From: Comamonas sp. NLF-1-9
GTDB taxonomy: Bacteria; Pseudomonadota; Gammaproteobacteria; Burkholderiales; Burkholderiaceae_C
Reading direction: 5' to 3'
DNA length: 64,000 nt
Assembly (NCBI RefSeq): GCF_019195435.1
Contig: NZ_CP078069.1
Coordinates: 310,001-374,000, forward strand
A program made the translations under genes and the position numbers. How positions within the stretch are numbered: the first letter of the stretch is position 1; each line of letters opens with the position of its first letter. The notes below the pieces were generated by a model. The model worked only from the letters and a program-made list of their open reading frames with translations. It ran no database searches and was not told the DNA's origin. Below, in pieces: positions 4,865 through 61,999 of the stretch.

Positions 4865-7438
4865 CTACCAGTCTTCCTTCACGGCCAGCACCGCGTCGCG
4901 GCCTGCGGCCGCCAGGCCGGTGAGCCAGGCAGTGAGGGCGCCGGCCACGACCACGGCCGCCGCCAGCAGCGCCAGGCGAGTCCAGGGCACGACCGTGTCC
5001 ATGCTCCAGTGAAAGCTCTGCGGGTTGACCACCCGCACCAGCACCAGCGCCGCCAGCAGCCCGAGCGCAGTGCCCGCGGCCGCGCCCACTGCCATCCAGG
5101 CCGTGCCTTCGCCGCTCACGACCGCGAGGATTTGCCGGCGCGTCAGGCCCAGGTGGGTGAGCAAGCCGAACTCCTTGCGCCGCGCCAGCACCTGGGCCGA
5201 CAGGCTCGCGGCCACGCCAAACAAGCCTATGCCCACGGCCACCGCCTGCAGCCAGTAGGTGACCGCAAAACTGCGGTCAAAGAGCTGCAGGGTGTGGGCG
5301 CGGATGGCGTCGGTGCGGCTGAATTCCAGCGCCTGCGCCGCGCCGCCGCGGGCGCGCAGCGCGGCCAAGACCGCATCCTGCAGCGCGCCTAGGCTGCTGC
5401 CCGGCGCGGGCCAGAGCGCCAGTTCGCTCGCACGCTCGTCGCCGCTCAGGCGGATGAAGTCCGCGCGCGCCATCACCGCCGCGCCCGTCTGGCGCACGTA
5501 ATCGCGCCACACGCCAGATATGAAAAAGAGAGCTTCTTGCGCTTGCGGGGATTGGGTTTGCGGCCGAAATGCCTTGGAAAATTCGGGCCAGTCCCGACCC
5601 GGGCGCACGCCGTAGAGGTCCAGCACCGCCTCGCTCACGTACAGCGGGATGCGCCCGGGCGGCGCGGGCACCGCGGCCTGGGTCAGGGGCAGGCTGCGTT
5701 CGGCTTGCGCGTCCAGCGGGCGCGCCAGGATCGCCAGCGGCGGCAGGCTGGCCGACAGGCGCAGGCTGCTGGTGCGCAGCGCCTGCACCCGCTGCACCTG
5801 GGGCAGGCGCTCCAGCGCCTGAACCAGCGCGGCAGAGAACACCGCGCCGTCGTCGCCCTGGGCGGCGCCGCTTGCACGCAGATAGGCGGGCGCGGGCAGC
5901 ATCGCGTCCAGCCATTGCTGAACCGACTGGCGAAAGCTCGTGACCATCACCGTGAGTGCCACCGCCAGGCTGAGCGCGGCGACCACGCCGCCCACGGTCG
6001 CCGCCGTTGCGCCACGCGTGCGCCGGGCGCGCTCGAGCGCCAGCAGCGCGAGCGCATGGCGGCCGGCCCAGGGCGCGAGCACGCCGAGCAGCCACTGCGT
6101 GAGCCAAGGCAGCAGCGCAATGCCGCCCACCAGCAGCAGCGCGACCGAGGCATAGGCCCCGAGCGCCATGCCCGCCACCGGCGGTGCCTGCGCCAGCAGC
6201 GCGCTGGCCGCCAGCATGGCCAGGCCGGGCAGCGCCAGGCGGTGCACGCTGGCGCCAGGCAGCGCCATGCCCAGACCCTTGAGCGTCTGCGCCGGCGGCA
6301 GGCGCTGGGCGCTGCGCGCCGGCCACCATGCGCCGGCCCAGGCGGCGCCCAGGCCGAGCAGCGCATAGGCGAGGGCGGCGCCGTTGCTCCAGTGCAGTCG
6401 GCTGGTGCCGGAAAAATAGCCGCCGCCCAGGTCGCCTCCGGCCAGGCGCAGCGCCAGCGCGGCCAGCAGCGCCCCCAGCAGCACGCCCAGCAGGCTGCCC
6501 AGCAGGCCCAGCGCGCTCGCTTCGCGCAAGACCAGCCACAGCCGCTGGCGCGGCGTCGCGCCGAGCACCGCCAGCAGCGCAAACTGCGGCTGGCGCCGCG
6601 CCACCGCCAGCGCCTGCACCGAAAACACCAGATAGGCGCCGGTGAACAGCGCAATCAGCGCCAGCACCGTGAGGTTGACCCGGTAGGCGCGCGAGAGCTG
6701 GTCCATCTGGCTGCTCTCCGCCTGGGGCGTGCTCAGCAGCAGGGCGTCGGCCTGCGCCGGCGTGAGCGCAAGCGAGCGCAGCAGCGCCTGCTGCGTCGCG
6801 CCCGGCACAAGCTGCAGGTCCACGCGGCTGAGCCAGCCGCCCTGGCCGAGCAAGTCCTGCGCCGCGCCGATGTCCATCACCGCCAGCGGGCCACCGCCGG
6901 CGGCCACGCTGCCGGCCACCGCCACCGGCAGGCGCTGCAGCCCCACCTGCAGCTCTACAGTGGCGGGGCCCCGGGGCAAGTCCAGCGCCTGCAGCGCGCT
7001 GGCGTTCAGGAACACAGTGGCGGCGGCAAAGAGGCTGGTGCGTGCGCTCTCGGGCCAGGGGCGGGGCATGAGCGCCGGCGCCATGCCGGGCAACACCAGG
7101 CTGTCGACCGCGAGCAGGCGCAGCGGGCTCTGCTGCGCGCCGGCGCTCGCCTGCACGCGCGCTTCCAGCACCGGGTTGGCGCGCAGCACCAGCGGGCTTT
7201 GCACCAGAGCGCCAAAAAGCGCCTCGGGCAGCCGGCCCTGGCGCGCGCGCACCTGCAGGTCGCTCTGGCCGCTGGCGGCGCGCGTGGCCTGGGCAAATTC
7301 GGTAAACGCGCTGGCGTTGATCAACTGCACCGCCAGCGCCAGCGCCACCCCGAGCATGATGGCCAGCACCGCCGCGAGGGCGCGCCAGGGGTGGCGGCGC
7401 AAGTCCTGCCAGGAGAAGCTGAGGAAGAGGCCGCGCAT
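4865..7438 (-). CDS. ABC transporter permease, FtsX/MacB family (long YbbP/AttFG-like form)
   Basis: About 857 aa. One N-terminal membrane segment ([20 protein letters not shown]) is followed by a large extracytoplasmic domain, then several hydrophobic segments and a second FtsX domain ending in clustered membrane helices. This is the duplicated-FtsX architecture of exporters that work with LolD/MacB-like ATPases, extracting or exporting lipids, lipoproteins or peptides. The ATPase encoded at 8059-8733 is the likely partner. I chose the ATG at 7438 ([18 protein letters not shown]); an upstream in-frame extension would run through the promoter of the divergent hsp20 gene. Positions 5523-5571 inside the gene match a repeat family seen elsewhere in the window and encode a Gln/Ala-rich insert just before [10 protein letters not shown]. 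Confidence 0.9.
5523..5571 (+). repeat. Interspersed 49-bp repeat, copy inside the FtsX permease gene
   Basis: Aligned without gaps to the intergenic copy at 36181-36229, about 31 of 49 positions agree by eye, including the AGCTnC, GCGCTTG and GGCC blocks. It lies antisense to the permease gene and is read in frame, giving roughly the peptide [13 protein letters not shown]. The lower-complexity peptide suggests an insertion rather than ancestral coding sequence. Confidence 0.5.
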
Positions 7439-8058: not shown

Positions 8059-8733
8059 TCAGGTTGGCGCCAGCGGCTGAATGCCTGCGGCGGTCAGGCG
8101 CAGTGCGCGGTCGGCGCGCGCGGCCGCGGCGCTCGCATGCGTGACGAGCACCAGCGCCGCCTGGTGCTCGCGCGTCTGGGCGATCAGCAAGTCCATGGTG
8201 CGCGCGGCCGTGCCCGGGTCGAGGTTGCCCGTGGGTTCGTCTGCCAGCAGCAGGGGCGGGCGGTGCACCAGCGCGCGTGCAATCGCCACGCGCTGCAACT
8301 GGCCGCCGCTGAGCTGCTGCGGCAGGCGCTCGCCCAAGCCTTCGAGGCCGACGGCGGCCAGCATCTGCTGCACCCGCGCCGCGTCGGGGCGCTTGAGCAA
8401 GAGCAGCGGCAGCGCCACGTTCTGCGCCACGCTCAGGTGCGGCAGCACGTGGAAGGCCTGAAACACGAAGCCCACATGGGCGCGGCGCCAGAGCGCGCGG
8501 GCGGCGTCGTCCAGCGGCCCGAGGTCTATGCCATCAAACACCACACGCCCTTCGTCCCAGGTGTCGAGCGCGGCCAGGCAGTTGAGCAGCGTGGACTTGC
8601 CCACGCCCGAATCGCCGACGATGGCGACAAACTCGCCGCGCTGCACCTGCAGGTTCACCCGCTCGAACACGGTCTGGCCGGCGTAGCGGCGGGCCAGGTT
8701 CTCGGCCGCGATCAGGGGCAGGGCGGCGTTCAT
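8059..8733 (-). CDS. ABC transporter ATP-binding protein, LolD/MacB type
   Basis: 224 aa, a single nucleotide-binding domain. Walker A GDSGVGKS (about residues 39-46), signature [15 protein letters not shown] and Walker [13 protein letters not shown] are all intact; the [10 protein letters not shown] form is typical of the LolD/FtsE/MacB group that works with FtsX-like permeases. The obvious partner is the permease at 4865-7438, next on the same strand apart from the hsp20 gene. The ATG at 8733 overlaps the stop of miaA (ATGA), so this ATPase is translationally coupled to tRNA modification rather than to its own permease, a gene order worth noting. Confidence 0.93.
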
Positions 8734-9689
8734 GCGGGCAGCCACCTGAGCACGGCCTGCACCAGCCGCGCGCTGGCGTCGGGCGCATCGGCGGCGATCA
8801 CCTGGCGCGCCGGCATGGCGCGCAGCCAGGTGAGCTGGCGGCGCGCAAGCTGGCGCGTGGCGGCCGCGCCGCGCTCGGGCAACTCGGCCAGGGGTAAGGC
8901 GCCGTCCAGCGCCTGCCAGCACTGGCGGTAGCCGACGCAGCGCATGCTCGGCAGCTCGGCATGCAGATCGGCGCGCGCGCGCAGGCCGCGCACCTCGTCC
9001 AGCAGGCCTTGCTGCAGCATGGCGTCAAAGCGCAGGCCTATGCGCCGGTGCAGCCAGCTGCGGTCTGCGGGTTCAAGAGAAAAAATGGCGTTTTCGCTGA
9101 TGGGACAAGCGCCATCAGCTATCGTTTGACTAGCAATGAGTGCGGACAGCGGGCGCCCGCTCAGCCGCCAGACCTCGAGCGCACGCTGGATGCGCTGGCT
9201 GTCCGCAGGCGCCAGGCGCGCGGCGGTGTCGGGGTCTACCCGCGCCAGCTCGGCATGCATCGCGGGCCAGCCGATGCGGGCGGCACGCGCATCGAGCTCG
9301 GCGCGCACCGCGGCATTGGCCGGGGGCAGGGCGGCCAAACCCTGCATCAAGGCCTTGAAGTACAGCAGCGTGCCGCCCACCAGCAGGGGCAGCGCGCCGC
9401 GCACCTGGATGGCGCCGATCAACGCAACCGCGTCGCGCACGAAGTCGGCGGCGCTGTAGCTCTGCGCCGGGTCGCGGATGTCCAGCAGATGGTGCGGCGC
9501 CTGGGCGCGCTCAGCGGCCGTGGGCTTGGCCGTACCTATGTCCATGCCGCGATAGACCAGGGCCGAATCGACGCTGATGATCTCCACCGCCAGGCCGCGC
9601 TCGGCGAGCGCGCGCACCAGCGCCAGCGCGGCGGCCGTCTTGCCGCTTGCGGTGGGGCCGCTCAGGGCCAGGGCGGGCAGTGCGGACAT
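8730..9689 (-). CDS. miaA: tRNA dimethylallyltransferase
   Basis: 319 aa. MiaA transfers a dimethylallyl group to A37 of tRNAs that read UNN codons. The P-loop GPTASGKT is at about residues 11-18, followed by [20 protein letters not shown] and HHLLDIRDP, the standard substrate-binding motifs; the C-terminal part has [13 protein letters not shown] start at the ATG at 9689 because it gives the canonical [12 protein letters not shown]-terminus. An unusual stretch ([17 protein letters not shown]), just before the conserved [13 protein letters not shown], coincides exactly with a 49-bp interspersed repeat at 9080-9128. The gene overlaps the downstream ATPase gene by ATGA. Confidence 0.95.
9080..9128 (-). 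repeat. Interspersed 49-bp repeat, in-frame copy within miaA
   Basis: On the minus strand it contains GATAGCTG, GGCGCTTGT, AGCG and GCCATTTTT in the order and spacing of the intergenic copy at 36181. About 18 of the first 24 positions agree, and the second half agrees less well. It is read through in frame and adds a peptide to MiaA between the central domain and the LEPADR motif. Confidence 0.6.
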
Positions 9690-9729
9690 GGGGCGCTCCA
9701 GGCTCGCAGGCACGCAGCGGGGGCTGCGG

Positions 9730-12796: not shown

Positions 12797-14374
12797 ATGG
12801 CGCCCTTGCATGTCCCTGTCGTTCCCGAAGCCGCCGTGGCGCGGCTGGAGCTCAGCGGGATCACCAAGCGCTACCCTGGCGTGGTCGCCAACGACGGCGT
12901 GTCGCTGAAGGTGCAGCCCGGAGAGATCCACGCGGTGCTCGGTGAAAACGGTGCCGGCAAGAGCACCTTGATGAAGATCATCTACGGCGCCGTCAAGCCC
13001 GACGCGGGCGACATGCACGTCGATGGGCGTCTGGCGCTGGTGCGCAACCCCCAGGCCGCGCGCCAACTCGGCATCGCGATGGTGTTTCAGCACTTCAGCC
13101 TGTTCGAGACGCTTTCCGTGGCCGAGAACGTCTGGCTCGGGCTGGACAAGACGCTCTCGCTGGCCGAAGTCTCGCGGCGCATCGCCGCCACTGCCGCAAC
13201 CTACGGCCTGGAGGTGGACCCCGAGCGCCCGGTGCACACCCTGGCCGTGGGCGAGATGCAGCGCGTGGAGATCATCCGCGCGCTGCTCGCGGGCCCGCGC
13301 CTCTTGATCCTGGACGAGCCTACTTCGGTGCTCACGCCGCAGGCGGTGGAAAAGCTGTTTGTCACGCTCAGGCGCCTGTCCGACGAAGGCTGCTCCATCC
13401 TCTACATCAGCCACAAGCTGCACGAGATCCGCGCGCTGTGCAGCGCCTGCACGGTGATGCGCGCGGGCAAGGTCACGGGCGTGTGCGATCCGCGTGAGGA
13501 AACCAACGCCTCGCTCTCGCGCCTGATGATCGGCGCCGAGCCGCCGCCGCTCACCCACGTGCCGCGCGAGCCGGGCGCGCCGGTGCTGGCGGTGAGCGCG
13601 CTCAGCCTTACGCGCGAATCGCCCTTCGGTGTCGATCTGGAAAACATCTCGCTCACGGTGCGCGCGGGTGAGGTACTGGGCATTGCCGGGGTCTCGGGCA
13701 ATGGCCAGCGTGAACTGCTGTTTTCGCTCTCCGGCGAAGACAGGCGTGCGCCTGCAGCTTCCATTTCAATAGCGGGCAAGGCGGCGGGGCGGATGAGCCC
13801 CTCGGCGCGGCGCGCGCTGGGCCTGCACTTCGTGCCCGAAGAGCGCCTGGGCCGGGGCGCGGTGCCCGAGATGAGCCTGGCGCACAACCTGCTGCTCACG
13901 CGCAAGGAGGCCGTCGGCCGCCTGGGCTGGCTGCGCATGCGCGCGCTGCGCCGCCAGGCGGCGGACATCATCGGGCGCTTTCGGGTCAAGGCCGCGGGCA
14001 CGCACGCGGCGGCCCGGTCGCTGTCGGGCGGCAACCTGCAAAAGTACATCATGGGGCGCGAGATCGACGCGCGCCCCAGACTGCTCATCGTCTCGCAACC
14101 GACCTGGGGCGTGGACGTGGGCGCCTCGGCGCAGATTCGCGGAGAAATCCTGGCGCTGCGCGACGCCGGCTGCGCGGTGCTGGTGGTGAGCGAGGAGCTC
14201 GATGAGCTGTTTGAAATCTGCGACCGCCTGCACGTCATCGCCAAGGGCCAGCTCTCGCCGAGCCTGGCGCGCAAGGACGCCAGCGTCGAGCAGATCGGGC
14301 TGTGGATGAGCGGGCTGTGGCCGGGGTCCGAAGGCGCGCTGGCGCAGCAGGAGGTGGCCCATGCTGCGGCTTGA
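12797..14374 (+). CDS. Nucleoside-type ABC transporter ATP-binding protein (two fused ATPase domains, NupO-like)
   Basis: 525 aa with two nucleotide-binding domains in tandem, as in RbsA/NupO proteins. The first has Walker A GENGAGKS, signature AVGEMQRVEIIRAL and Walker B LLILDEPTSVL. The second has the usual degenerate P-loop GVSGNGQRE and signature LSGGNLQKYIMGREI. With the two permeases and the BMP lipoprotein downstream it forms a complete importer for purine nucleosides or similar compounds. Its last 14 bp overlap the first permease gene. Positions 13741-13773 resemble half of the window's interspersed repeat and encode PAASISIAGK. Confidence 0.93.
   Translation: MAPLHVPVVPEAAVARLELSGITKRYPGVVANDGVSLKVQPGEIHAVLGENGAGKSTLMKIIYGAVKPDAGDMHVDGRLALVRNPQAARQLGIAMVFQHFSLFETLSVAENVWLGLDKTLSLAEVSRRIAATAATYGLEVDPERPVHTLAVGEMQRVEIIRALLAGPRLLILDEPTSVLTPQAVEKLFVTLRRLSDEGCSILYISHKLHEIRALCSACTVMRAGKVTGVCDPREETNASLSRLMIGAEPPPLTHVPREPGAPVLAVSALSLTRESPFGVDLENISLTVRAGEVLGIAGVSGNGQRELLFSLSGEDRRAPAASISIAGKAAGRMSPSARRALGLHFVPEERLGRGAVPEMSLAHNLLLTRKEAVGRLGWLRMRALRRQAADIIGRFRVKAAGTHAAARSLSGGNLQKYIMGREIDARPRLLIVSQPTWGVDVGASAQIRGEILALRDAGCAVLVVSEELDELFEICDRLHVIAKGQLSPSLARKDASVEQIGLWMSGLWPGSEGALAQQEVAHAAA
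13741..13773 (-). repeat. Partial interspersed-repeat copy inside the nucleoside ABC ATPase gene
   Basis: On the minus strand it reads CTATTGAAATGGAAGCTGC then AGGCGC, matching the first half of the repeat family (AAATTGATAGCTGC, GCGC) with one missing base. It begins with a small perfect hairpin, CAGGCG-TG-CGCCTG. The second half is absent or too diverged, so this is the weakest listed copy. Confidence 0.3.
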
Positions 14375-26189: not shown

Positions 26190-27491
26190 ATGACCGCACC
26201 TACCGCGCCGCCTTCGCATCCCCAGCGTGCGCTGCTGCACGCGGAGATCCATGCGCGCCCGCCCCAGCCCATCACCGCCCCGCAGGCGATCAGCCATGTG
26301 GTGATGTGGGCCGACGCGCCCGAGCGCGACGCGAGCCATGCCCATCTGGCAGTGCTGCTGCAAGAGCGCGGTCTGGCGCCGCCGCAGGCCGGCTCGACGC
26401 ATTGGCGCGTCGAGCTGGGGCCCTTGCGCGTGGTCTGCGAGATGCACACCGAGTTCGTCTCTTGGACCTTCGCGACCGCGCTGGCGGCGCCCGACGGTCT
26501 TGGCCAAGAGCCGCCCGCCGCCGCCTTGAGCGCGCTGCCTGGTGAATGGCTTGCCGGCCTGCCGGGGCAGTGCCTGTGCCGGCTCAACCTCTGGGTGCTG
26601 GAGCGGCGCAGCCACGCCGACGGGCCGCTGGTGGCGCAGGTGCTGCAAGAGGGCACGCTGGTGGCGTCCTGCGTGGCGGGCGGGCAGGCCGAGGTCTACA
26701 CCGACTTCGCGCTGCGCGCCGACGGCAGCTCGCGCATGGTGCTGCTGGCGGGCAACCTGTCGCCACGGCGCCTGGGGCGCACGGTGCAGCGCCTGCTGGA
26801 GATGGAAACCTACCGCATGACCGCGCTGCTGGGCCTGCCGCTGGCGCGCGATGCGGCGGGGGCCCTGGCGCGGGCCGAGCGCGAGCTGGCGCAGCTCGCG
26901 GAAGCCATCCGCCTGGCCGACCGCGACGCCGAGCCCCGGCTGCTCGACGAGCTCACCCGTCTGGCCGGCCAGGTCGAGAGCCTGTACGCCGCCACGCATG
27001 CGCGGTTCTCCGCCAGCAGCGCGTATTTCGACCTGGTGGCGCAGCGCATCCGCGAGCTCGGCGAGACGCCGCTGGCCGGCCTGCAAACCCTGGGCGAGTT
27101 CATGGACCGGCGCCTGAGCCCGGCGCGCAACACCTGCGAATGGGCGGTGCGCCGCCAGAATGCGCTGTCCGAGCGCGTCTCGCGTACCAGCAATCTGCTG
27201 CGCACGCGCGTGGAGATCGCCCAGCAGCAAAGCAGCCAGCAATTGCTCGCGGCGATGAACCGGCGCCAGGACATGCAGCTGCGCCTGCAGTCCACGGTGG
27301 AAGGCCTGTCGGTGGCCGCGATCACCTACTACGTCGTCGGCCTGATCAGCTATCTGGCCCAGGGCGCGCAGGCGCTGGGCTGGCCCTGGAGCGCGCCGGC
27401 TACCGCCGCCACGGCCATTCCTGCCGTTGCGCTGGCGGTCTGGTGGTCGCTCAGGCGCATGCATCGGCGCCTTTTCAGGAATATGCATTGA
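26190..27491 (+). CDS. DUF3422 family membrane-anchored protein
   Basis: 433 aa. HAEIHARPPQPITAPQAISH at the N-terminus and the FVSWTF motif are typical of DUF3422. The middle is alpha-helical with coiled-coil character (residues 215-360), and the C-terminus has two membrane helices (VAAITYYVVGLISYLAQ and a following Ala-rich helix), with a basic tail SLRRMHRRLFR. The layout resembles CorA-like or other two-helix inner-membrane proteins, but no function is known. Its stop overlaps the TTG start of the EamA gene. Confidence 0.85.
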   Translation: MTAPTAPPSHPQRALLHAEIHARPPQPITAPQAISHVVMWADAPERDASHAHLAVLLQERGLAPPQAGSTHWRVELGPLRVVCEMHTEFVSWTFATALAAPDGLGQEPPAAALSALPGEWLAGLPGQCLCRLNLWVLERRSHADGPLVAQVLQEGTLVASCVAGGQAEVYTDFALRADGSSRMVLLAGNLSPRRLGRTVQRLLEMETYRMTALLGLPLARDAAGALARAERELAQLAEAIRLADRDAEPRLLDELTRLAGQVESLYAATHARFSASSAYFDLVAQRIRELGETPLAGLQTLGEFMDRRLSPARNTCEWAVRRQNALSERVSRTSNLLRTRVEIAQQQSSQQLLAAMNRRQDMQLRLQSTVEGLSVAAITYYVVGLISYLAQGAQALGWPWSAPATAATAIPAVALAVWWSLRRMHRRLFRNMH

Positions 27492-28426
27492 AACCGGCTC
27501 AAACGCAGACGGGCAAAGCGCCAGCAGCTCCTGAAAACGCAGCACACGGGCTTTTGCTCGCGGCGCTCGGCGCGGTCGCGTTCAGCGGCAAGGCGATCAT
27601 CGTCAAGCTCGCCTATCGCTACGGCGTCGATGCGGTCACGCTGCTGATGTACCGCATGCTGTTTGCGCTGCCCATCTTCCTCGTCATGGCCTGGTGGGCC
27701 GGGCGCGGTCAGCCGCGCCTGTCGGCGCGCGACTGGCGCGGCATCGTCGGGCTCGGGGTGTGCGGCTATTACCTTGCGAGCTTTCTGGACTTTGCCGGGC
27801 TGGCCTACATCTCGGCGGGGCTGGAGCGGCTCATCCTCTACCTGAACCCGACCATCGTGATGTTGCTCGGCTGGCTGCTCTATGGCGAGCGCATGGGCCG
27901 CGGCCAGATGCTTGCCATGCTGCTGAGCTACTGCGGCGTGGTGCTGGTCTTTGGCGTGGAGGCCATGTCGGGCAGCAAAGCCGGCGGGCATATCGCCTGG
28001 GGCGTGCTGCTGGTGTTTGGCAGCGCCCTGAGCTATGCCTTCTACCTCGTCTACAGCGGCGCCATGGTGCGGCGCGTGGGCGCGCTGCGCCTGGTGGGCC
28101 TGGCCACCAGCGTGGCCAGCGTCTGCTGCGTGCTGCAGTTCCTGCTGGTGAGGCCGCTGTCGGCGGCGCTGGTCGCGCCCGAGGTGATCTGGCTGTCGCT
28201 GCTCAATGCCACCGCCTGCACCGCCGCGCCGGTGCTCATGGTGATGCTGGCGATTGAGCGCATCGGCGCGGCGCTGACCGCGCAGACCGGCATGCTCGGA
28301 CCCTTGTCCACCATCGTGCTCGCGGCTTGGCTGCTGAGCGAGGCGATCACGCCCTCGATGATCGCCGGCACCGCCCTGGTGCTGGCCGGCATCTATCTTT
28401 TTACGCGCGCCGGCAGGGCGCGCTAG
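27488..28426 (+). CDS. EamA/DMT-superfamily transporter
   Basis: 312 aa, ten hydrophobic segments in two EamA repeats. The first repeat contains AFSGKAIIVKLAYRYGVDAVTLLMYRM and PTIVMLLGWLLYGERM, the second SALSYAFYLVYSGAMV. Members export metabolites or amino acids; the substrate is unknown. No ATG precedes the first helix, and the TTG at 27488, overlapping the upstream stop (TTGA), is the most reasonable start. About 290 bp without a gene follow. Confidence 0.85.
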   Translation: MKPAQTQTGKAPAAPENAAHGLLLAALGAVAFSGKAIIVKLAYRYGVDAVTLLMYRMLFALPIFLVMAWWAGRGQPRLSARDWRGIVGLGVCGYYLASFLDFAGLAYISAGLERLILYLNPTIVMLLGWLLYGERMGRGQMLAMLLSYCGVVLVFGVEAMSGSKAGGHIAWGVLLVFGSALSYAFYLVYSGAMVRRVGALRLVGLATSVASVCCVLQFLLVRPLSAALVAPEVIWLSLLNATACTAAPVLMVMLAIERIGAALTAQTGMLGPLSTIVLAAWLLSEAITPSMIAGTALVLAGIYLFTRAGRAR

Positions 28427-36050: not shown

Positions 36051-36125
36051 TGGCGCCTCCGGCAGGAATCGAACCTGCATCTGGCGCTTAGGAGGCGCCC
36101 GTTCTATCCATTGAACTACGGCGGC
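36051..36125 (-). tRNA. tRNA-Arg (anticodon CCT)
   Basis: 75 nt including an encoded CCA (TGG on the plus strand at 36051-36053). Anticodon stem GGCGC/GCGCC closes the loop CTCCTAA, giving anticodon CCT; the D-stem is GTTC/GAAC and the T-arm is GCAGG-TTCGATT-CCTGC. The acceptor stem GCCGCCG/CGGAGGC pairs except for a G opposite A at position 4:69. Confidence 0.93.
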
Positions 36126-36180
36126 GGAAAACGGCCGATTGTACGGGCATGCCCGTGGCGGGGAAAATCGGGGCTATATA

Positions 36181-36229
36181 AAATTGATAGCTGCCAGCGC
36201 TTGTGGGTCAAGCGTTGCAGGCCAATTTG
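36181..36229 (+). repeat. Interspersed 49-bp repeat, intergenic copy next to tamB stop
   Basis: Reference copy of the family. It has AAATTGATAGCTGCC, then a hairpin AGCGCTTG (36196-36203), loop TGGGT, CAAGCGTT (36209-36216), and a second small palindrome GGCC-AATTT-GGCC (36220-36232) that runs up to the tamB stop codon. On the minus strand the hairpins directly follow tamB and could act as its transcription terminator. Confidence 0.65.
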
Positions 36230-36232
36230 GCC

Positions 36233-39200
36233 TCAATCATAGCGCAGGGTGTAGATCAGGTCGAGCGCGCTTTGCGCCCCGGTCTGCCCGCGCAGCGTCA
36301 GGCTGCGCGACAGGTCCAGGAAGATGTAGAGCGTGCCCATGGCGCCGGCCAGGCTGTGTTCGTAGGCGACGTAAAGCCTGCGCGAGAGGCGCTTGCCCAG
36401 CGTGAGCGCGGCGCCGTTCAGGCCGCTCGCGCCGTCGGGGCCGCGAAAGCCGATCTCGTCGAGCCCCAGGCGCTGCGCCACGCCGCCGGCCGGATCGCCC
36501 CCGCCGCTGAGCAAGGCCAGCGCCGCCTGCTGCATCAGCGCGGCTTCGGCCCCGCCGGCGGCGGCGCTGCGCCCCAGCACCAGCCAGGAGAGCTTTTCCG
36601 CGTCCGGCATCTCGGGGTCGGAGTACAGCCGCGCGCGCGGCGCCAGCGCGCTGCCGCTGACCTGCACGCCCACGCGCTCGCTGATCTGCGGGCGCAGCGC
36701 CAGGATGTCCAGCTGCGGGTTGTCCGCCGCGCCGGAAAAGCGCAGCAGCCCGGTTTCCACGTCCAGCACCTGGCCCCAGGCGCGGTAGCGTCCCTGCTCG
36801 GTGCGGATCTCGCCCAGCACGCGCGGCATGGGGCCGCTCTTGCCGTCGCTGGTGATCCTGAGCTGGCCCTTGAGCCGCGTGGTCAGGCCGTGGCCTTGCA
36901 CCGCGAAGTCGTCGCCCAGATCGAGCTCGATGTCCATGGCCGGCGCGCTGGCCGCGTGGACCCGGGTGTCCTCTTCGGTCTGCTCCGTGGGCGCGTCGCC
37001 GCCGTGCACCACCACGTCATCGCTCAGCTTGGGCGCGCTGTCGTCGGGCAGCAGAATGCTTGCGCGGTCCGCCTTGAGCTGACCGCTGAGCATCAGCTGT
37101 CCATCCTGCAGTTGCGCGTGCAGCTTGCCCGACAAGCTCAACTGGCGGTCGGCGCGCACTAGCAGTTGCAGTGCCTCGGCCTCGGCGTTCATGTCCATGC
37201 GCACCTGCGCGCCCTGCCAGGTGATCAGGCCGCTGCCGCGCAGGCTGCCGCCGTCGCTGGGCGCGCGCGTCAGATTGCCGCTGGGCCCGAGGATGCGTGC
37301 GCCGCTGCCGCTGCCGCCGCGCACGAAGAGTTCGGTGACCTGCAACTGCTCGCCCTGCAGGCGGGCGCGCACCCGCCCGTCGCGCAGGTCGATGCCGTCG
37401 ATCACCGAGCGCACCGCAAAGTCGTCGGCGCTGAGCGTGCCGCTCAGTTGTGGCGAGCCCAGGCTGCCCGCCAGCTGCACCTGCGCGCCCAGGCTGCCGT
37501 GCACGCGCCAGCCCGGCGGCGCGAACATGGACCACACGCCCACGTCGGGCAGCGCCGCGTGCGCGCTCCCGGACAGCGGCGCGTCCTGTGCAAGCCGCCA
37601 GGCGCCGCCCACGCGCTCCAGGGGCAGGCGGGCTTCTGCGCTGGCCTGGCCGGCGCGCTCGCTGTCCCAGGCGGCGTCCAGTTTGAGCTCGCGCTCGTCT
37701 GCAAGCATTTGCAGCTGCAACTGGCGCAGGCCGGCGGCGCTGCTCTGGCCTTCGATCGGCAGTTGCAGGTCGCCGCCGCTGCGCCGCAGCGTGACGCTGG
37801 CCTGCAGCGCCTCGCCCATCTGCACGTCCCAGTCGGCGGCCAGCACCAGGTCGCCACCCAGGCCCAGGCGCTGCAGCAGCGGCGTGGGCTCGGCGTCCAG
37901 CGCGTTGGCCCAGGCCAGCGGCAAGTCGCGCAGGCTGCCGTGGCTGCTCAGGCGCAGCGCCGAGGGCTGGTCACCCCCCGAGGGCAGGCTCAACTGCACC
38001 GGGTCGGCCTGCAGCGTCGCGCTGCCCGCTTGCGGCCCCTGGAGGCGAGCGGCAAGCGGGCCGGTCTCGATCTTGAGCCCGCCCGCACTTTGCACCGCGA
38101 GCGTGAGCGGCGCCTGCAGTTGCAGCCGCCAAGGTCCCGGGCGCCGGCCCTGGCGTGCCTGCAGCGAGAGCTCGGAGAGTTGCGCCTGCCAGCGCCCCTG
38201 GCCCAGCACGCCGGCGCTGCCCCGCAGTTGCACGCTGGCGCTGAGCATGGCCTCGTCCTGACCCTGGCTGGCGCTGGCGCCCAGGCTCAGCGCCATGTTC
38301 GCGGGCGTGCCCTCCAGGCGGGCTTGCAGTTGGCGCAGCGCCAGCGGGGCGCCAGCGGCGGGGCGGTAGTCCAGTTGTGGCAGCTCCAGTGTGGCCTGGA
38401 GCGTGGGCGCGTCGGCGGCGCTCTTTCCCTGGGCGGCGTCCAGCAGCGTCTGCCAGCCGCCCTGCCACTGGGCCTGCAGCTGCCCCTGTCCCTTGAACTG
38501 GGCTTGCGTCAGTTCGCTCGGCAGCGGCAAGGGCAGGGGCAGCGCGCCCAGCCACTCTTGCAGCGCCTGCGCGCTCTTGAGCGCGAGCTCGATTTCGCCC
38601 TTGCCACGGCGCGGCGCCAGCTCGCCCTGCAATTGCAGGCTGGCGCCGGGCACACTGGCGCTGAGTTGTCCGCTGCCGGCGCGCGCCGCCAGGTCGAGCC
38701 TGAGCTCGCTCGCCTGCAGCCTGGCCTGCAGCGCGGCCAGCGTCAGCGTGGAGACGTTCAGCGCTTCTTCCTGCCAGCGGGCCTTGAGCTGCAAGCGCTC
38801 AAACTGCCAGCGGTCGCGCTGGTGCGCGGCGGCGGCGCTCAGGCTGGCCTGCAGATCCAGGCCGTCCTTCAGCGAACCAGAAGCGCTGATCTCGCCATTC
38901 ACCGGCGCGGCTTGCAGTTGCCGGTGCAGCAGAGCGGGGTTCAGTGCGTGCACGCCGAGCCTGGCTTGCAGCTTGCCGCTTTCAAGCTCGTAGCGCGCCT
39001 GCTGCAGCTCGATGTGGCCGCTGCCCACTTCGAGGCGGGCGCTGTGCAGCGCGAGCAGCGAGCCGTCAAACCGGGCGCTCGCCTGCAGCGCGCTCAAGGG
39101 CAGGCGGCCCGCGTCCCAGGGGCCGGCTAAATCATTGGTCAAATCGGCCTGTAACGCCCACCCTGCCTGCGCTAACTGCTCCTGTGGTTGTAGCGAAAGC

Positions 39201-40135
39201 TGCCCGGCGAGTGCGGTCTGCGGCGCGCCCGGCCAGAGCAGCGCGAGGTTGAGCGCCTGCAATTGCGCGCTGGCTTCGTGCAGCGGCTGCGCGGCCCAGG
39301 GCAGCACGGTCGCGCTGGCCTGCGCCTGCAGCGGATTGCCGTCTTCACCCTTGAGCTGGGCGCTCAAGGCCAGGCGCGCAGCGCGCCCGGACAGCGGGCC
39401 AGCGGCCCGTAGCTGTGCGCTGGCTGCCACGGGAGCGCCGTCGGGCGCCAGCCGGGCTTGCAGACTGGCCTGCAGTGCCGCCTCGAGCTGCATGGGTGCG
39501 GCGCCCTGCAGGCTGGCCTGCAGTTGGTAATTGCCCTCGGCAAAGTGCAGCTCGTCGATGCGCAGCCGATGCTCGCGCCCGTCCCAGTCGTAGTGGCCGC
39601 GCAGTGCGGTGATCGTAGGCGGCGCGCCTTCGCCCGGTGCGCTCCAGACGATTTCGTCGGCCGACAGCGGCGTGCTGATGCGCAGCGGCAGCACCACCTG
39701 CTGCAGCGGCGTGCTCTCTTCAGGCTCCGGGTCGGGGCGCGGTTGCGGGGCAAGAGCGATGCGCTGCGCGTGCAGCTCGGTCACGAGCAGCTCGCCGTGC
39801 AGCAACGCCAGCGGCTGCCAGGCGATGCGCAGCCCCTGCAGTTGCAGCGCCAGGCCGGGTTGGCTGAAATGCACTTGTCCGATCTGCCCGCCATGCAGCA
39901 GCGTGCCGCGCACCTCCCTGGCGTCGAGCTGCATCGGCGCGGGCAGCTCGCGCGTGGCCAGGCGCAGTACGGTGGCGAGCGAGCCCTCGCTGCCCGCCCA
40001 GCCCCAGAGCGCGGCCAGCGCGGTGAGCAGCAGAAGCACCAACGCCACCAGCGCGCGGCCCAGCATGCGCCAGGCGCGCCGCCGCGGCCGCACTGCGGGA
40101 GCGGGTGGGGATGGGTTGGGCTTGGGTGCAGTCAA
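36233..40135 (-). CDS. tamB: Translocation and assembly module subunit TamB (DUF490/AsmA-like)
   Basis: About 1300 aa. One N-terminal membrane helix (ALVALVLLLLTALAALWGWA) is followed by a very long beta-rich, Gln/Leu-repeat region and the conserved C-terminal DUF490 domain, with EIRTEQGRYRAWGQVLDVE, LRFSGAADNPQLDILALRP and PDAEKLSWLVLGRS. TamB spans the periplasm and works with TamA in outer-membrane protein insertion and phospholipid transport. The start is uncertain: TTG 40135, GTG 40093 or ATG 40066. tamA lies 245 bp upstream on the same strand. A repeat copy at 39140-39188 is read in frame. Confidence 0.93.
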   Translation of the reverse strand: MTAPKPNPSPPAPAVRPRRRAWRMLGRALVALVLLLLTALAALWGWAGSEGSLATVLRLATRELPAPMQLDAREVRGTLLHGGQIGQVHFSQPGLALQLQGLRIAWQPLALLHGELLVTELHAQRIALAPQPRPDPEPEESTPLQQVVLPLRISTPLSADEIVWSAPGEGAPPTITALRGHYDWDGREHRLRIDELHFAEGNYQLQASLQGAAPMQLEAALQASLQARLAPDGAPVAASAQLRAAGPLSGRAARLALSAQLKGEDGNPLQAQASATVLPWAAQPLHEASAQLQALNLALLWPGAPQTALAGQLSLQPQEQLAQAGWALQADLTNDLAGPWDAGRLPLSALQASARFDGSLLALHSARLEVGSGHIELQQARYELESGKLQARLGVHALNPALLHRQLQAAPVNGEISASGSLKDGLDLQASLSAAAAHQRDRWQFERLQLKARWQEEALNVSTLTLAALQARLQASELRLDLAARAGSGQLSASVPGASLQLQGELAPRRGKGEIELALKSAQALQEWLGALPLPLPLPSELTQAQFKGQGQLQAQWQGGWQTLLDAAQGKSAADAPTLQATLELPQLDYRPAAGAPLALRQLQARLEGTPANMALSLGASASQGQDEAMLSASVQLRGSAGVLGQGRWQAQLSELSLQARQGRRPGPWRLQLQAPLTLAVQSAGGLKIETGPLAARLQGPQAGSATLQADPVQLSLPSGGDQPSALRLSSHGSLRDLPLAWANALDAEPTPLLQRLGLGGDLVLAADWDVQMGEALQASVTLRRSGGDLQLPIEGQSSAAGLRQLQLQMLADERELKLDAAWDSERAGQASAEARLPLERVGGAWRLAQDAPLSGSAHAALPDVGVWSMFAPPGWRVHGSLGAQVQLAGSLGSPQLSGTLSADDFAVRSVIDGIDLRDGRVRARLQGEQLQVTELFVRGGSGSGARILGPSGNLTRAPSDGGSLRGSGLITWQGAQVRMDMNAEAEALQLLVRADRQLSLSGKLHAQLQDGQLMLSGQLKADRASILLPDDSAPKLSDDVVVHGGDAPTEQTEEDTRVHAASAPAMDIELDLGDDFAVQGHGLTTRLKGQLRITSDGKSGPMPRVLGEIRTEQGRYRAWGQVLDVETGLLRFSGAADNPQLDILALRPQISERVGVQVSGSALAPRARLYSDPEMPDAEKLSWLVLGRSAAAGGAEAALMQQAALALLSGGGDPAGGVAQRLGLDEIGFRGPDGASGLNGAALTLGKRLSRRLYVAYEHSLAGAMGTLYIFLDLSRSLTLRGQTGAQSALDLIYTLRYD
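39140..39188 (-). repeat. Interspersed 49-bp repeat, in-frame copy within tamB
   Basis: Minus-strand alignment to the copy at 36181-36229 gives about 29 of 49 matches without gaps. They concentrate in TAGCGC, GCGTT, and CAGGCCGATTTG. It encodes part of QLAQAGWALQADLTND in the TamB repeat region, where an insertion would be easily tolerated. Confidence 0.45.
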
Positions 40136-49378: not shown

Positions 49379-49539
49379 GGTGAGGGTAGGAGCGTGGGTG
49401 CTGGGCAGGACGGGCGGCGCGCGGGCGCCATGCAGACAGAAGCGATTTTGCGGCAAGCGCGTTGACCGGCGGGTGCGCCGGCGCTGCTGCGTTAGAGTAG
49501 CCGCAGCCGATGGGCGCCGCCATGCCGCCGTGCAATGCA

Positions 49540-49588
49540 AGATTCATAGCACGCAGCGCTTGTCCGGCAAGCGTTTGAGGCTGATTTG
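49540..49588 (+). repeat. Interspersed 49-bp repeat, intergenic copy upstream of parA-like gene
   Basis: Ungapped match to the copy at 36181-36229 at about 37 of 49 positions. The hairpin is preserved: AGCGCTTG (49555-49562), loop TCCGG, CAAGCGTT (49568-49575). Between the two copies the loop differs while both stem arms are identical. It ends 24 bp before the parA-like start. Confidence 0.65.
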
Positions 49589-49611
49589 TTGCAGAAGTTG
49601 AGAGGTGGACC

Positions 49612-50232
49612 ATGGCGTTGATTGCGGTAGCGAACCCCAAGGGCGGGGTAGGCAAGTCCACGCTGGCCACGAACATCGCCGGCTACTACGCAAGCCGCGG
49701 TCTGGACGTGGCCCTGGGCGACATCGACGGCCAGCAGTCGGCACGCTGGTGGCTGCAGCAGCGCCCCGCGGCCGCGCGCCCGATCACGCTGTGGGAAGCG
49801 AGCCCCGACTGGCTCGGCCGCCCGCCACGCGAAGCACAGAGCGCAGTGCTCGACACCCCGGCCGGTCTGCAAGGCTGGCGCCTCAATGACGTGCTGCGCA
49901 AGGCCGACCGCGTCGTCGTGCCGCTGCAAGCGAGCGTCTTCGACATTTTTGCCACGCGCCAATTTCTTGACGAGCTGCACGAGATGCACGCAGGCCAGCC
50001 CGAGCGCATAGGCATAGTCTGCATGCGGGTGGACCCGCGCACCCACGCGGCCGATCAGCTGCAGGAGTTCGTGGCCACGCTGGGCCTGCCGGTGCTCGGC
50101 CAGTTGCGCAATACCCAGAACTACGTGCACCTGGCGGCCCATGGGCTGACGCTGTTTGACGTTGCGCCCGGGCGCGTGGCGCGCGATCTGGAGCAGTGGC
50201 GGCCGCTGTGCCGCTGGCTGGACGCGGTCTGA
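49612..50232 (+). CDS. ParA-family ATPase
   Basis: 206 aa. The deviant Walker A KGGVGKST is at residues 10-17, with the signature lysine, and the D-DGQQSARWW sequence (GDIDGQQSARWWL) is the A' motif. Walker B is VLDTPAG. Short orphan ParA/MinD proteins of this length position chemotaxis clusters, plasmids, or other cargo; without a ParB partner or cargo gene next to it the role is unknown. Start ATG 49612 has GAGAGGTGG upstream. Confidence 0.9.
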   Translation: MALIAVANPKGGVGKSTLATNIAGYYASRGLDVALGDIDGQQSARWWLQQRPAAARPITLWEASPDWLGRPPREAQSAVLDTPAGLQGWRLNDVLRKADRVVVPLQASVFDIFATRQFLDELHEMHAGQPERIGIVCMRVDPRTHAADQLQEFVATLGLPVLGQLRNTQNYVHLAAHGLTLFDVAPGRVARDLEQWRPLCRWLDAV

Positions 50233-61378: not shown

Positions 61379-61999
61379 ATGCACAAACGCAGATTCTTCA
61401 AATTCATAGCTGCTGGCGCAGCATCAGCAAGCCTTGCAGGCCTTTTTGCTGCATGTACCGAGGCGCCCAAGCCGGAATTCAAGGGGGTGGACATCACCGG
61501 CGTCGACTACGCGCGCGACCTGCCGCTGACCGATCAGTTCGGCGAGCGGCGCCACATCAAGGACTTTGCCGGCAAGGTGGTGGCGGTCTTCTTCGGCTAT
61601 ACCCATTGCCCCGACGTCTGCCCGACCACGATGAGCGAGCTCGCGCAGGTCAAGGCCGAACTCGGCATCGATGGCGACAAGTTCGTGGCGGTCTTCGTCA
61701 CGGTGGACCCCGAGCGCGACACGCCGGAGATCCTCAAGGCCTACATGGCCAACTTCGATCCGGCCTTCATTGCGCTGCGGGGCAGCCCCGAAGAACTTGC
61801 CGCAGTGGCCAAGGACTTCAAGATCTTCTACAAGCAGGTCGAGGGACCGACTCCGACCAGCTACACCATGGACCATTCGGCGGGCATGTACATGTTCGAC
61901 CCGAGCGGCCATCTGCGGCTGTTTCACCGCTACGGCAGCCCGGTGCAGGCGCTGGTGGACGACACGCGCACCCTGCTCGCGGAAAAGCGCAGCAGCTGA
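61379..61999 (+). CDS. SCO1/SenC copper chaperone lipoprotein
   Basis: 206 aa. The lipoprotein signal ends SLAGLFAAC with lipobox Cys near residue 24. The Sco fold has copper ligands C77 and C81 in THCPDVCPTTM, and His166 in MDHSAGMY. It metallates the CuA site of CoxB. The signal-peptide core is encoded by a copy of the interspersed repeat (61400-61448). It closes the cox assembly cluster, 37 bp from the convergent rpoH. Confidence 0.95.
   Translation: MHKRRFFKFIAAGAASASLAGLFAACTEAPKPEFKGVDITGVDYARDLPLTDQFGERRHIKDFAGKVVAVFFGYTHCPDVCPTTMSELAQVKAELGIDGDKFVAVFVTVDPERDTPEILKAYMANFDPAFIALRGSPEELAAVAKDFKIFYKQVEGPTPTSYTMDHSAGMYMFDPSGHLRLFHRYGSPVQALVDDTRTLLAEKRSS
61400..61448 (+). repeat. Interspersed 49-bp repeat forming the signal-peptide core of sco
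   Basis: Ungapped match to the copy at 36181-36229 at about 35 of 49 positions; 8 of the 14 differences are consecutive, in and beside the loop. AAATTCATAGCTGC, CAAGC and TTGCAGGCC are shared. In frame it reads FIAAGAASASLAGLF, the hydrophobic part of the lipoprotein signal. Confidence 0.6.

Follow-up and report, generated by a model that had tools for sequence, protein, structure and literature searches.

The window analysed here, a 64-kb stretch of DNA (G000:C1:310001-374000) from a complete genome of 3.03 Mb with a GC content of 68%, carries partly palindromic sequences of similar design, some of them between genes and others read in frame within genes. A preliminary description listed seven such places, held the family to lie mostly inside genes, and took the hairpin arms kept in two intergenic copies as a sign of structural selection or of a mobile palindrome, with insertion into genes as a source of new peptide segments. 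The locus raises the question of what these sequences are, and whether those inside genes arrived there by insertion or took shape by substitution.

Copies in the window and along the genome

The exact core ATAGCTGCNNGCGCTTN{2,12}AAGCG has 35 matches in the genome (G000) and none in the reversed control, and the spacing is identical in every match. Thirty of the 35 exact-core copies were aligned to give a 60-column covariance model with an 8-bp stem, and a weight matrix of 60 columns was built from the same 30 copies, the window copy at 36177 included. The genome contains at least 150 profile matches, all of the listed ones with E<1e-3, and the genome-wide search proposed in the preliminary description thus finds an excess.

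The weight matrix places six copies above 15 bits in the window (36177+, 49536+, 9073-, 61396+, 5519+, and 27482-). Random sequence from an order-3 Markov model (47 windows, 3.0 Mb) scored 1.7 bits at best, the reversed window gave nothing above 8 bits, and 18 loci picked as motif-free from other genera or families (75 kb) reached at most -8.6 bits. Under the covariance model the weaker window copies fare less well than under the weight matrix, with E values per window of 0.014 (9073), 0.045 (61396), 0.26 (5519), and 0.008 (27482). By the weight matrix, five of the seven places first listed are members of the family. The place at 39140, which like that at 9080 is on the minus strand, is borderline: this match inside the TamB-like gene (39133..39192, minus strand) scores 7.7 bits, above the random maximum, and the covariance model gives E 0.82 for the window at 39138. 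The place at 13741 was rejected as a copy, with a best score of -27.8 bits.

The two strongest window copies are intergenic. The copy at 36177..36236 (plus strand, 74.9 bits) has as its neighbors a tRNA gene (36054-36125, minus strand) and the 3′ end of the TamB-like gene (36233-40066, minus strand), and the same site scores 63.7 bits in the relative G008, 65.3 in G007, where the flanks are 104 nt apart and not 84, and 27.7 in G005. The copy at 49536..49595 (plus strand, 56.0 bits) closely precedes a gene for a ParA/CbiA-type ATPase (predicted start at 49612); the site of this copy scores 67.7 bits in G008, 48.6 in G005 (flanks 71 nt apart), and 15.1 in G007 (flanks 93 nt apart). As had been described, the two copies have the hairpin arms AGCGCTTG and CAAGCGTT in common and differ in their loops.

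The weaker copies lie in or at the edge of genes. The copy at 9073..9132 (minus strand, 33.7 bits) is read in frame, on the sense strand, within miaA (8730-9713, minus strand), and contributes 17 residues to a variable loop. The copy at 61396..61455 (plus strand, 33.2 bits) encodes the peptide KFIAAGAASASLAGLFA in a SCO1/SenC-family gene (61379-61999, plus strand), within an N-terminal segment that by eye resembles a lipoprotein signal; at constant spacing this site scores 30.4 bits in G008, 20.4 in G007, and -7.1 in G005. Another copy in the same genome (L004) likewise occupies the N-terminus of its predicted gene. The copy at 5519..5578 (plus strand, 31.9 bits) is antisense to a gene for a MacB/FtsX-type permease (4865-7438, minus strand), and its site scores 30.6 bits at the same place in G008 and, again at constant spacing, 4.1 in G007 and 9.9 in G005. 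A further copy missed by the preliminary description, at 27482..27541 (minus strand, 19.8 bits), sits where a DUF3422 gene (ending at 27491) meets an EamA gene, and is probably N-terminal coding sequence if the EamA gene starts, as inferred, at the TTG at 27488; this site scores 28.0 bits in G008 and, with the 84-nt spacing kept, -3.2 in G007 and 9.3 in G005. In-frame copies within genes do therefore exist, as was first described, with three or four of the weaker window copies lying in genes.

The view that copies lie mostly inside genes does not extend to the genome. Among 116 copies placed, 79 are intergenic, 15 lie across a gene end, and only 22 fall wholly within genes, which were predicted with our own codon-usage caller and no annotation; by this caller 91% of the window is coding. 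The 116 are made up of 34 exact-core copies (of 35) and 82 more of the 150 matches listed; outside this set are 2991355 and 1298564, the copy at 359536 in the window (viewed by hand), and the 31 matches that rank lowest. The wholly internal share by thirds of the score is 6/39, 7/39, and 9/38. The 94 non-internal copies are oriented without regard to the direction of transcription (33 same-same and 29 opposite-opposite, with 18 and 14 in the two mixed contexts), and several copies directly follow stop codons. Among the 150 matches listed, 73 are on the plus and 77 on the minus strand with no strand trend visible in 200-kb bins, the spacing is indistinguishable from random (CV 0.95, P 0.34), and the smallest gap is 297 bp, with 6 gaps under 1 kb vs. 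7.2 expected at random. Copies occur singly and have a GC content of 49%. Their density is six in 64 kb here; among five relatives, the highest is 24 in 80 kb.

Motif architecture and constraint at the DNA level

The motif extends over about 50-60 bp and consists of an A/T-rich tract, a YR-rich step, ATAGCTGC, two free bases, the dyad GCGCTTG-5-CAAGCG, and then TTnGAGCC, after which follow a T tract and a loose, A-ending tail. The consensus at the foot of the hairpin is ATAG, not a REP tag of the GTAG or CGTC type (names as in PMC3733652). These features were drawn from a set of 168 rows, made up of 121 from the genome itself (one of them a duplicate, the window copy at 36177 being the same as L007) and 47 from other genomes scoring above 28 bits. 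Mutual dependencies between columns are short-range in this set, the 25 strongest all joining columns at most two apart. Several positions accept alternatives: columns 6-8 read AAA in 24%, TTT in 26%, and mixed A/T in 35% of rows, columns 57-58 read TG in 26% and CA in 27%, and the center carries CC in 70 rows, GG in 73, and both in 11. Stem pairs are formed about as often as in shuffled rows, the exception being the weak pair 20-40, which 13 of 1000 shuffles reach; several stem pairs barely vary and are uninformative in this respect. The interchangeable A/T tracts, TG/CA, and CC/GG together with the short-range dependencies suggest that DNA shape, and not a hairpin, is what is preserved. With the duplicate row set aside, nearest neighbors among the 121 rows from the genome are identical at no more than 51 of 60 positions. 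In another genome the core matches both strands at G011:C1:4607359-4607397, forming a full palindrome, and both-strand cores are similarly found at G011:C1:1999886-1999920 and G234:C12:9613-9647.

Inside genes, the motif stands out from the codon usage around it. GC at third positions is 90-92% outside the element and drops to 44% inside it in MiaA and 33% in a carboxylase. Plain codon identity differs little between inside and outside (0.75 vs. 0.73 for MiaA and 0.72 vs. 0.67 for the carboxylase, in a set that includes three carboxylase paralogues, L229-L231), because the GC bias at third positions already makes the outside codons alike. Constraint was therefore scored as the exact retention in another genus of a codon ending in A or T where the amino acid is unchanged, with genus, and not locus score, as the basis for choosing orthologues, and with the three paralogues excluded. 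Such codons are kept in 454 of 607 cases inside the element vs. 330 of 2417 outside for MiaA, in 130 of 165 vs. 410 of 1608 for the carboxylase, and in 534 of 726 vs. 496 of 2855 for PurK. Retention is thus 74-79% inside vs. 14-25% elsewhere in the three genes, figures that describe strong patterns and not exact probabilities, as the codon pairs share ancestry, are non-independent, and come from three genes. In element-bearing orthologues the inside value exceeds that of every other window of equal length (271, 469, and 335 windows). With copies selected on one half of the motif and scored on the other, the information content of the family correlates positively with cross-genus conservation in 6 of 6 comparisons, with coefficients of 0.46, 0.61, and 0.67 (p<=0.01) and of 0.23, 0.32, and 0.32 (p 0.08-0.22). 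Judged from these sequence comparisons, the motif looks to be held at the DNA level and to change mainly by substitution.

Host genes and orthologous sites

The genes that hold copies include, by their closest solved structures, miaA, proA, purK, and truB, and by Pfam a shikimate-dehydrogenase gene, a Kdo-transferase gene, mutL, uvrA, tex, an MmeI-type gene, a carboxylase gene, and dnaE. Two copies lie in the dnaE gene (L013, the same as L165), and two exact cores in the uvrA-type gene of L052. A second, GC-rich palindrome family (CTCCCCC...GGGGGAG, CCCTCTCCC...GGGAGAGGG) is packed in this UvrA-type gene at about 750-2000 of L052; it also adjoins the element in AtuA-type and carboxyltransferase-type genes (L131, L169), where it encodes PLPLGEGRGEG-like peptides beside the element. 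Of the 22 internal copies, 17 are antisense to the host gene, an excess that is not significant given the stop frequencies (p 0.13). A stop-free antisense strand was considered and found to be wrong, as 22-40 of the 94 non-coding copies have stops in each antisense frame and 35-91 of the 94 in the sense frames. Fourteen of the 17 antisense copies share one frame, with peptides like K.N.PQTLA.QA.AAI, and this use of a single frame exceeds what open-frame availability suggests (p 8e-5).

Orthologues of three host genes were sought in 45 (MiaA), 45 (carboxylase), and 40 (PurK) genomes, our own included, and about 30 loci were taken per gene. For MiaA, the element is at the same place in 14 of 30 loci from seven genera (score above 12); loci without it score -19 or less and are at most 6 amino acids shorter, some being longer. 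The PurK element is found in genera g1 (7 of 9), g3, g5, g11, g15, and g16 (12 loci), with a borderline 11.4 in g13, and is absent at identical length from G002, G005, and G011. The PurK peptide is QVFEGNLPAALAEQAVASARAIAE with GC-rich codons in L281 (G016, a fragmentary relative) and EVYEGNLPPALAEQAVAATKSIAN with motif letters in G022. The carboxylase element is present in same-gene orthologues of g1 (7 of 9), g16, and g3. Orthologues without the motif are mostly 4-11 amino acids shorter at this point, the congener G002 being 5 longer, so that an insertion may have occurred in this gene. A paralogous carboxylase (about 45% identical to the gene of L024) in G012, G018, and G011 has element-like sequence of 13-30 bits in the corresponding loop (L229:2224, L230:2251, L231:2200), which perhaps arose independently at the same permissive place.

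Each of the six window copies has a counterpart at the orthologous site in G008 (15.7-67.7 bits). Five comparisons with G007 or G005 fall below 10 bits (at 5519, 27482, and 61396) and keep the exact 84-nt spacing; two of these, at 9.3 and 9.9 bits, look like relics of the motif. Flank spacing varies around the intergenic copies, from 71 to 104 nt between relatives. The window comparison left out G012 and G023 except at the miaA locus, and miaA in G007 and G005, where the flanks are far apart. Comparison with the nearest solved homologues gives about 13 additional residues in ProA (vs. 4ghk), 4 in TruB, and none in PurK; for MiaA, one solved homologue is shorter by 4 residues and another is longer. 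No clean empty site with a duplicated target was seen in the three genes or the six window loci, which differ by substitution or by unequal length in variable or intergenic stretches. As a protein, the segment is less conserved than the rest of the gene product (0.46 vs. 0.74 and 0.70 in MiaA and the carboxylase). The general picture from these alignments is one of substitution, with insertion possible at some loci (carboxylase, ProA). On presence and absence in orthologues, the comparison proposed in the preliminary description gives differences without change of length for PurK and three window loci, and leaves an insertion possible for the carboxylase and ProA.

A candidate uptake signal and its rivals

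Of 100 genomes searched, 13 contain exact cores, our own among them; these cover eight of the nine of the genus and five other genera of the family, and there are no exact cores in 40 genomes from other families of the order. Profile matches number one or more in at least 59 of 250 family genomes when the best 21 or fewer candidates per genome are scored. A looser core is found 76 times in G000 and 0 to 452 times across 65 family genomes picked mainly for their profile matches, 49 of which have at least one; its reversed form has a single match in total. These counts differ strongly within genera (for g16: 452, 23, and 11). The exact core occurs in six IMG/VR contigs. With one copy as the query, phage records gave no match, and 2 of 72,556 plasmid records matched at 77-79% identity, both from Diaphorobacter sp. 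HDW4A and located in cobN and a TolC-family gene. A scan of genome records with one loop sequence returned a single record, an uncultured Acidovorax MAG. Text searches of papers did not find the motif in print, although a sequence of this kind may be known from Comamonadaceae.

It is probable that the motif is a DNA-level signal that a protein reads as double-stranded DNA, and that it is not mobile. We infer that the site has a dyad core. Of the functions that such a signal could have, that of a DNA-uptake sequence is tentatively favored because of a report of sequence-specific transformation in Comamonadaceae whose relevant passages name no motif (PMC4212676). Uptake by Verminephrobacter eiseniae is described as proceeding via type IV pili and, from competition data, as sequence-selective, again with no motif named in the account of it; Acidovorax temperans and A. 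facilis are competent, and Acidovorax species were not transformed with each other's DNA (PMC4212676), for which low homology could be the cause. Two families, Pasteurellaceae and Neisseriaceae, are known to have strong uptake motifs, and USS are described as evolving by point mutation, being rarer in coding sequence, and being able to accumulate by drive (PMC7811141). Dyad-symmetric DUS pairs are described for Simonsiella and Kingella (PMC3630211). The proposal is made, short of even confidence, because the features measured here resemble those descriptions (PMC4212676; PMC7811141; PMC3630211). A protein would read the double-stranded motif of about 50-60 bp, which would be maintained at the DNA level, and the most likely reader would be the DNA-uptake machinery. 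DNA bearing the motif would be preferentially taken up and recombined, and this biased uptake (molecular drive) would spread motif-like letters, as for the Pasteurellaceae USS and Neisseriaceae DUS. It is possible that the motif represents an independently evolved third family of genomic DNA-uptake sequences, belonging to Comamonadaceae, 50-60 bp long, dyad-symmetric, read by shape, and maintained by biased uptake even inside genes.

Among the traits shared with uptake sequences, one motif is strongly over-represented on both strands (35 vs. 0; 73 plus and 77 minus among the 150 matches listed), its copies are dispersed, the majority in intergenic DNA and the rest in protein segments that tolerate them, and PurK and five window comparisons point to origin by point mutation and not insertion, the carboxylase and ProA being ambiguous. 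USS and DUS are likewise dispersed and rarer in coding sequence, with intragenic copies in permissive places and an origin by point mutation (PMC3630211; PMC7811141), USS combine a core with AT-rich flanks, and the dyad-symmetric DUS pairs offer a further likeness (PMC3630211). In contrast to their 9-12 bp, the motif here has about 50-60 bp, and it belongs to another bacterial family; its length and its density of six per 64 kb are unlike those of known uptake sequences. The density, which is below the approximately one per kb implied by USS counts (PMC7811141) with a genome size for H. influenzae taken from general knowledge, and the two plasmids with similar stretches count against uptake.

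The uptake gene comEC/rec2 has an intact frame in G000 and is above the cut-off in 62 of 65 genomes. It is missing in G003 and broken in G011, both of which bear copies. Some losses go with low counts, as in G003, which alone in its genus has no full match and which has 6 cores vs. 46-138 in the other eight genomes, and in G136, which has an N-terminally short match and 15 cores vs. 177 in G237. The pattern is reversed for G289 (short match), with 10 cores vs. 1 in G047, and G011 has an intermediate 44. Cores are absent from G050 (ComEC fragment) and G214 (short); G193, G276, and G225 have an intact ComEC yet few cores, and many intact genomes have none. As possible proof of a role in uptake, ComEC loss thus gives a mixed pattern. 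ComEC/Rec2 looks split, N-terminally short, or missing in G003, G289, G214, and G136, and the first three have a separate open frame of about 307 amino acids that matches only the N-terminal part of the ComEC/Rec2 model.

The main rival is a site for a nucleoid-associated, chromosome-organizing, or other double-stranded DNA-binding protein under weak selection per site, which is a real possibility. The dyad core, with a symmetry that suits a dimeric reader, the shape-like alternatives, the conservation at the DNA level, and the random placement on both strands all agree with such a site, but 0-452 cores over 65 genomes and strong differences within genera are unusual for a housekeeping site. 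The highly iterated palindromic motif HIP1 of cyanobacteria, also of debated function, is similar in kind (PMC4390886), but it is an 8-mer tied to DNA methyltransferases, whereas the present motif is long with a variable center. An old REP- or MITE-like palindrome that was mobile and multiplied in an ancestor but has since lost its mobility would account for many copies of an imperfect palindrome lying mostly between genes, and also for the shorter motif-free carboxylase orthologues and the extra residues of ProA. Such an origin is unlikely, as neutral decay does not explain the retained AT-ending codons, PurK and three window loci differ without change of length, and motif-free MiaA is at most 6 amino acids shorter. 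The likeness to REP/REPIN with RAYT lies in a short imperfect palindrome with many, mostly extragenic copies, but here there are no close inverted pairs and no near-identical copies, and codons are constrained. The transposase that the preliminary description had suggested is also lacking, with no PF01797 (Y1/RAYT) match in the complete genome and none in G008. Some motif-bearing relatives, such as G011, G012, G018, and G031, have one such match each, as do many motif-free relatives. A RAYT/REP system was rejected for want of a Y1 match, with random gaps, no near-identical copies, and stem covariation at one pair at most; the selection offered in the preliminary description appears to stand, while the mobile palindrome offered beside it finds no support. 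The genome with the most exact cores among the 100, G023, has 20 Y1-transposase matches, several of equal score, which may reflect an IS200-type burst. The Beta-proteobacterial repeat element (BRE) shares with the motif an occurrence in Comamonadaceae, besides Bordetella, and some copies in coding sequence, but in Bordetella it is 75-91 bp at full length, 69% GC, and sometimes tandem (PMC3110155), in contrast to single copies of 49% GC here, a distinction drawn by description and not by sequence.

Rickettsial palindromic elements are palindromic DNA translated in frame inside proteins, and the idea that similar insertions add peptide segments was that of the preliminary description. In its favor are the 22 of 116 copies in frame inside genes, the 14 of 17 antisense copies in one frame, and the lower protein conservation of the segment in MiaA and the carboxylase. 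It is nevertheless very improbable, and was rejected for PurK, where motif-free orthologues of the same length give a similar peptide without the nucleotide pattern, a result that the preliminary description itself had named as a refutation; empty MiaA and carboxylase sites are not 15-20 amino acids shorter, and no clean insertion was seen, unlike in the rickettsial elements. Elements of that type are listed in PMC2635572. There is equally little to recommend an RNA hairpin or transcription terminator, which the stem arms and the copies right after stop codons would suit, but which was rejected on the lack of any orientation preference and on covariation that is weak and confined to one pair; copies also persist in genes.

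In-frame palindromes need a check of orthologous codons before they are read as inserted peptides. We know of no reader protein for such a long DNA signal, and if the motif were a site for a nucleoid protein, it would still be a case of a long signal in DNA prevailing over codon choice in the housekeeping genes of several genera. Strong uptake motifs have been described for two families only (PMC7811141). The motif offers a concrete, testable candidate signal for the sequence-specific transformation reported in Comamonadaceae (PMC4212676).
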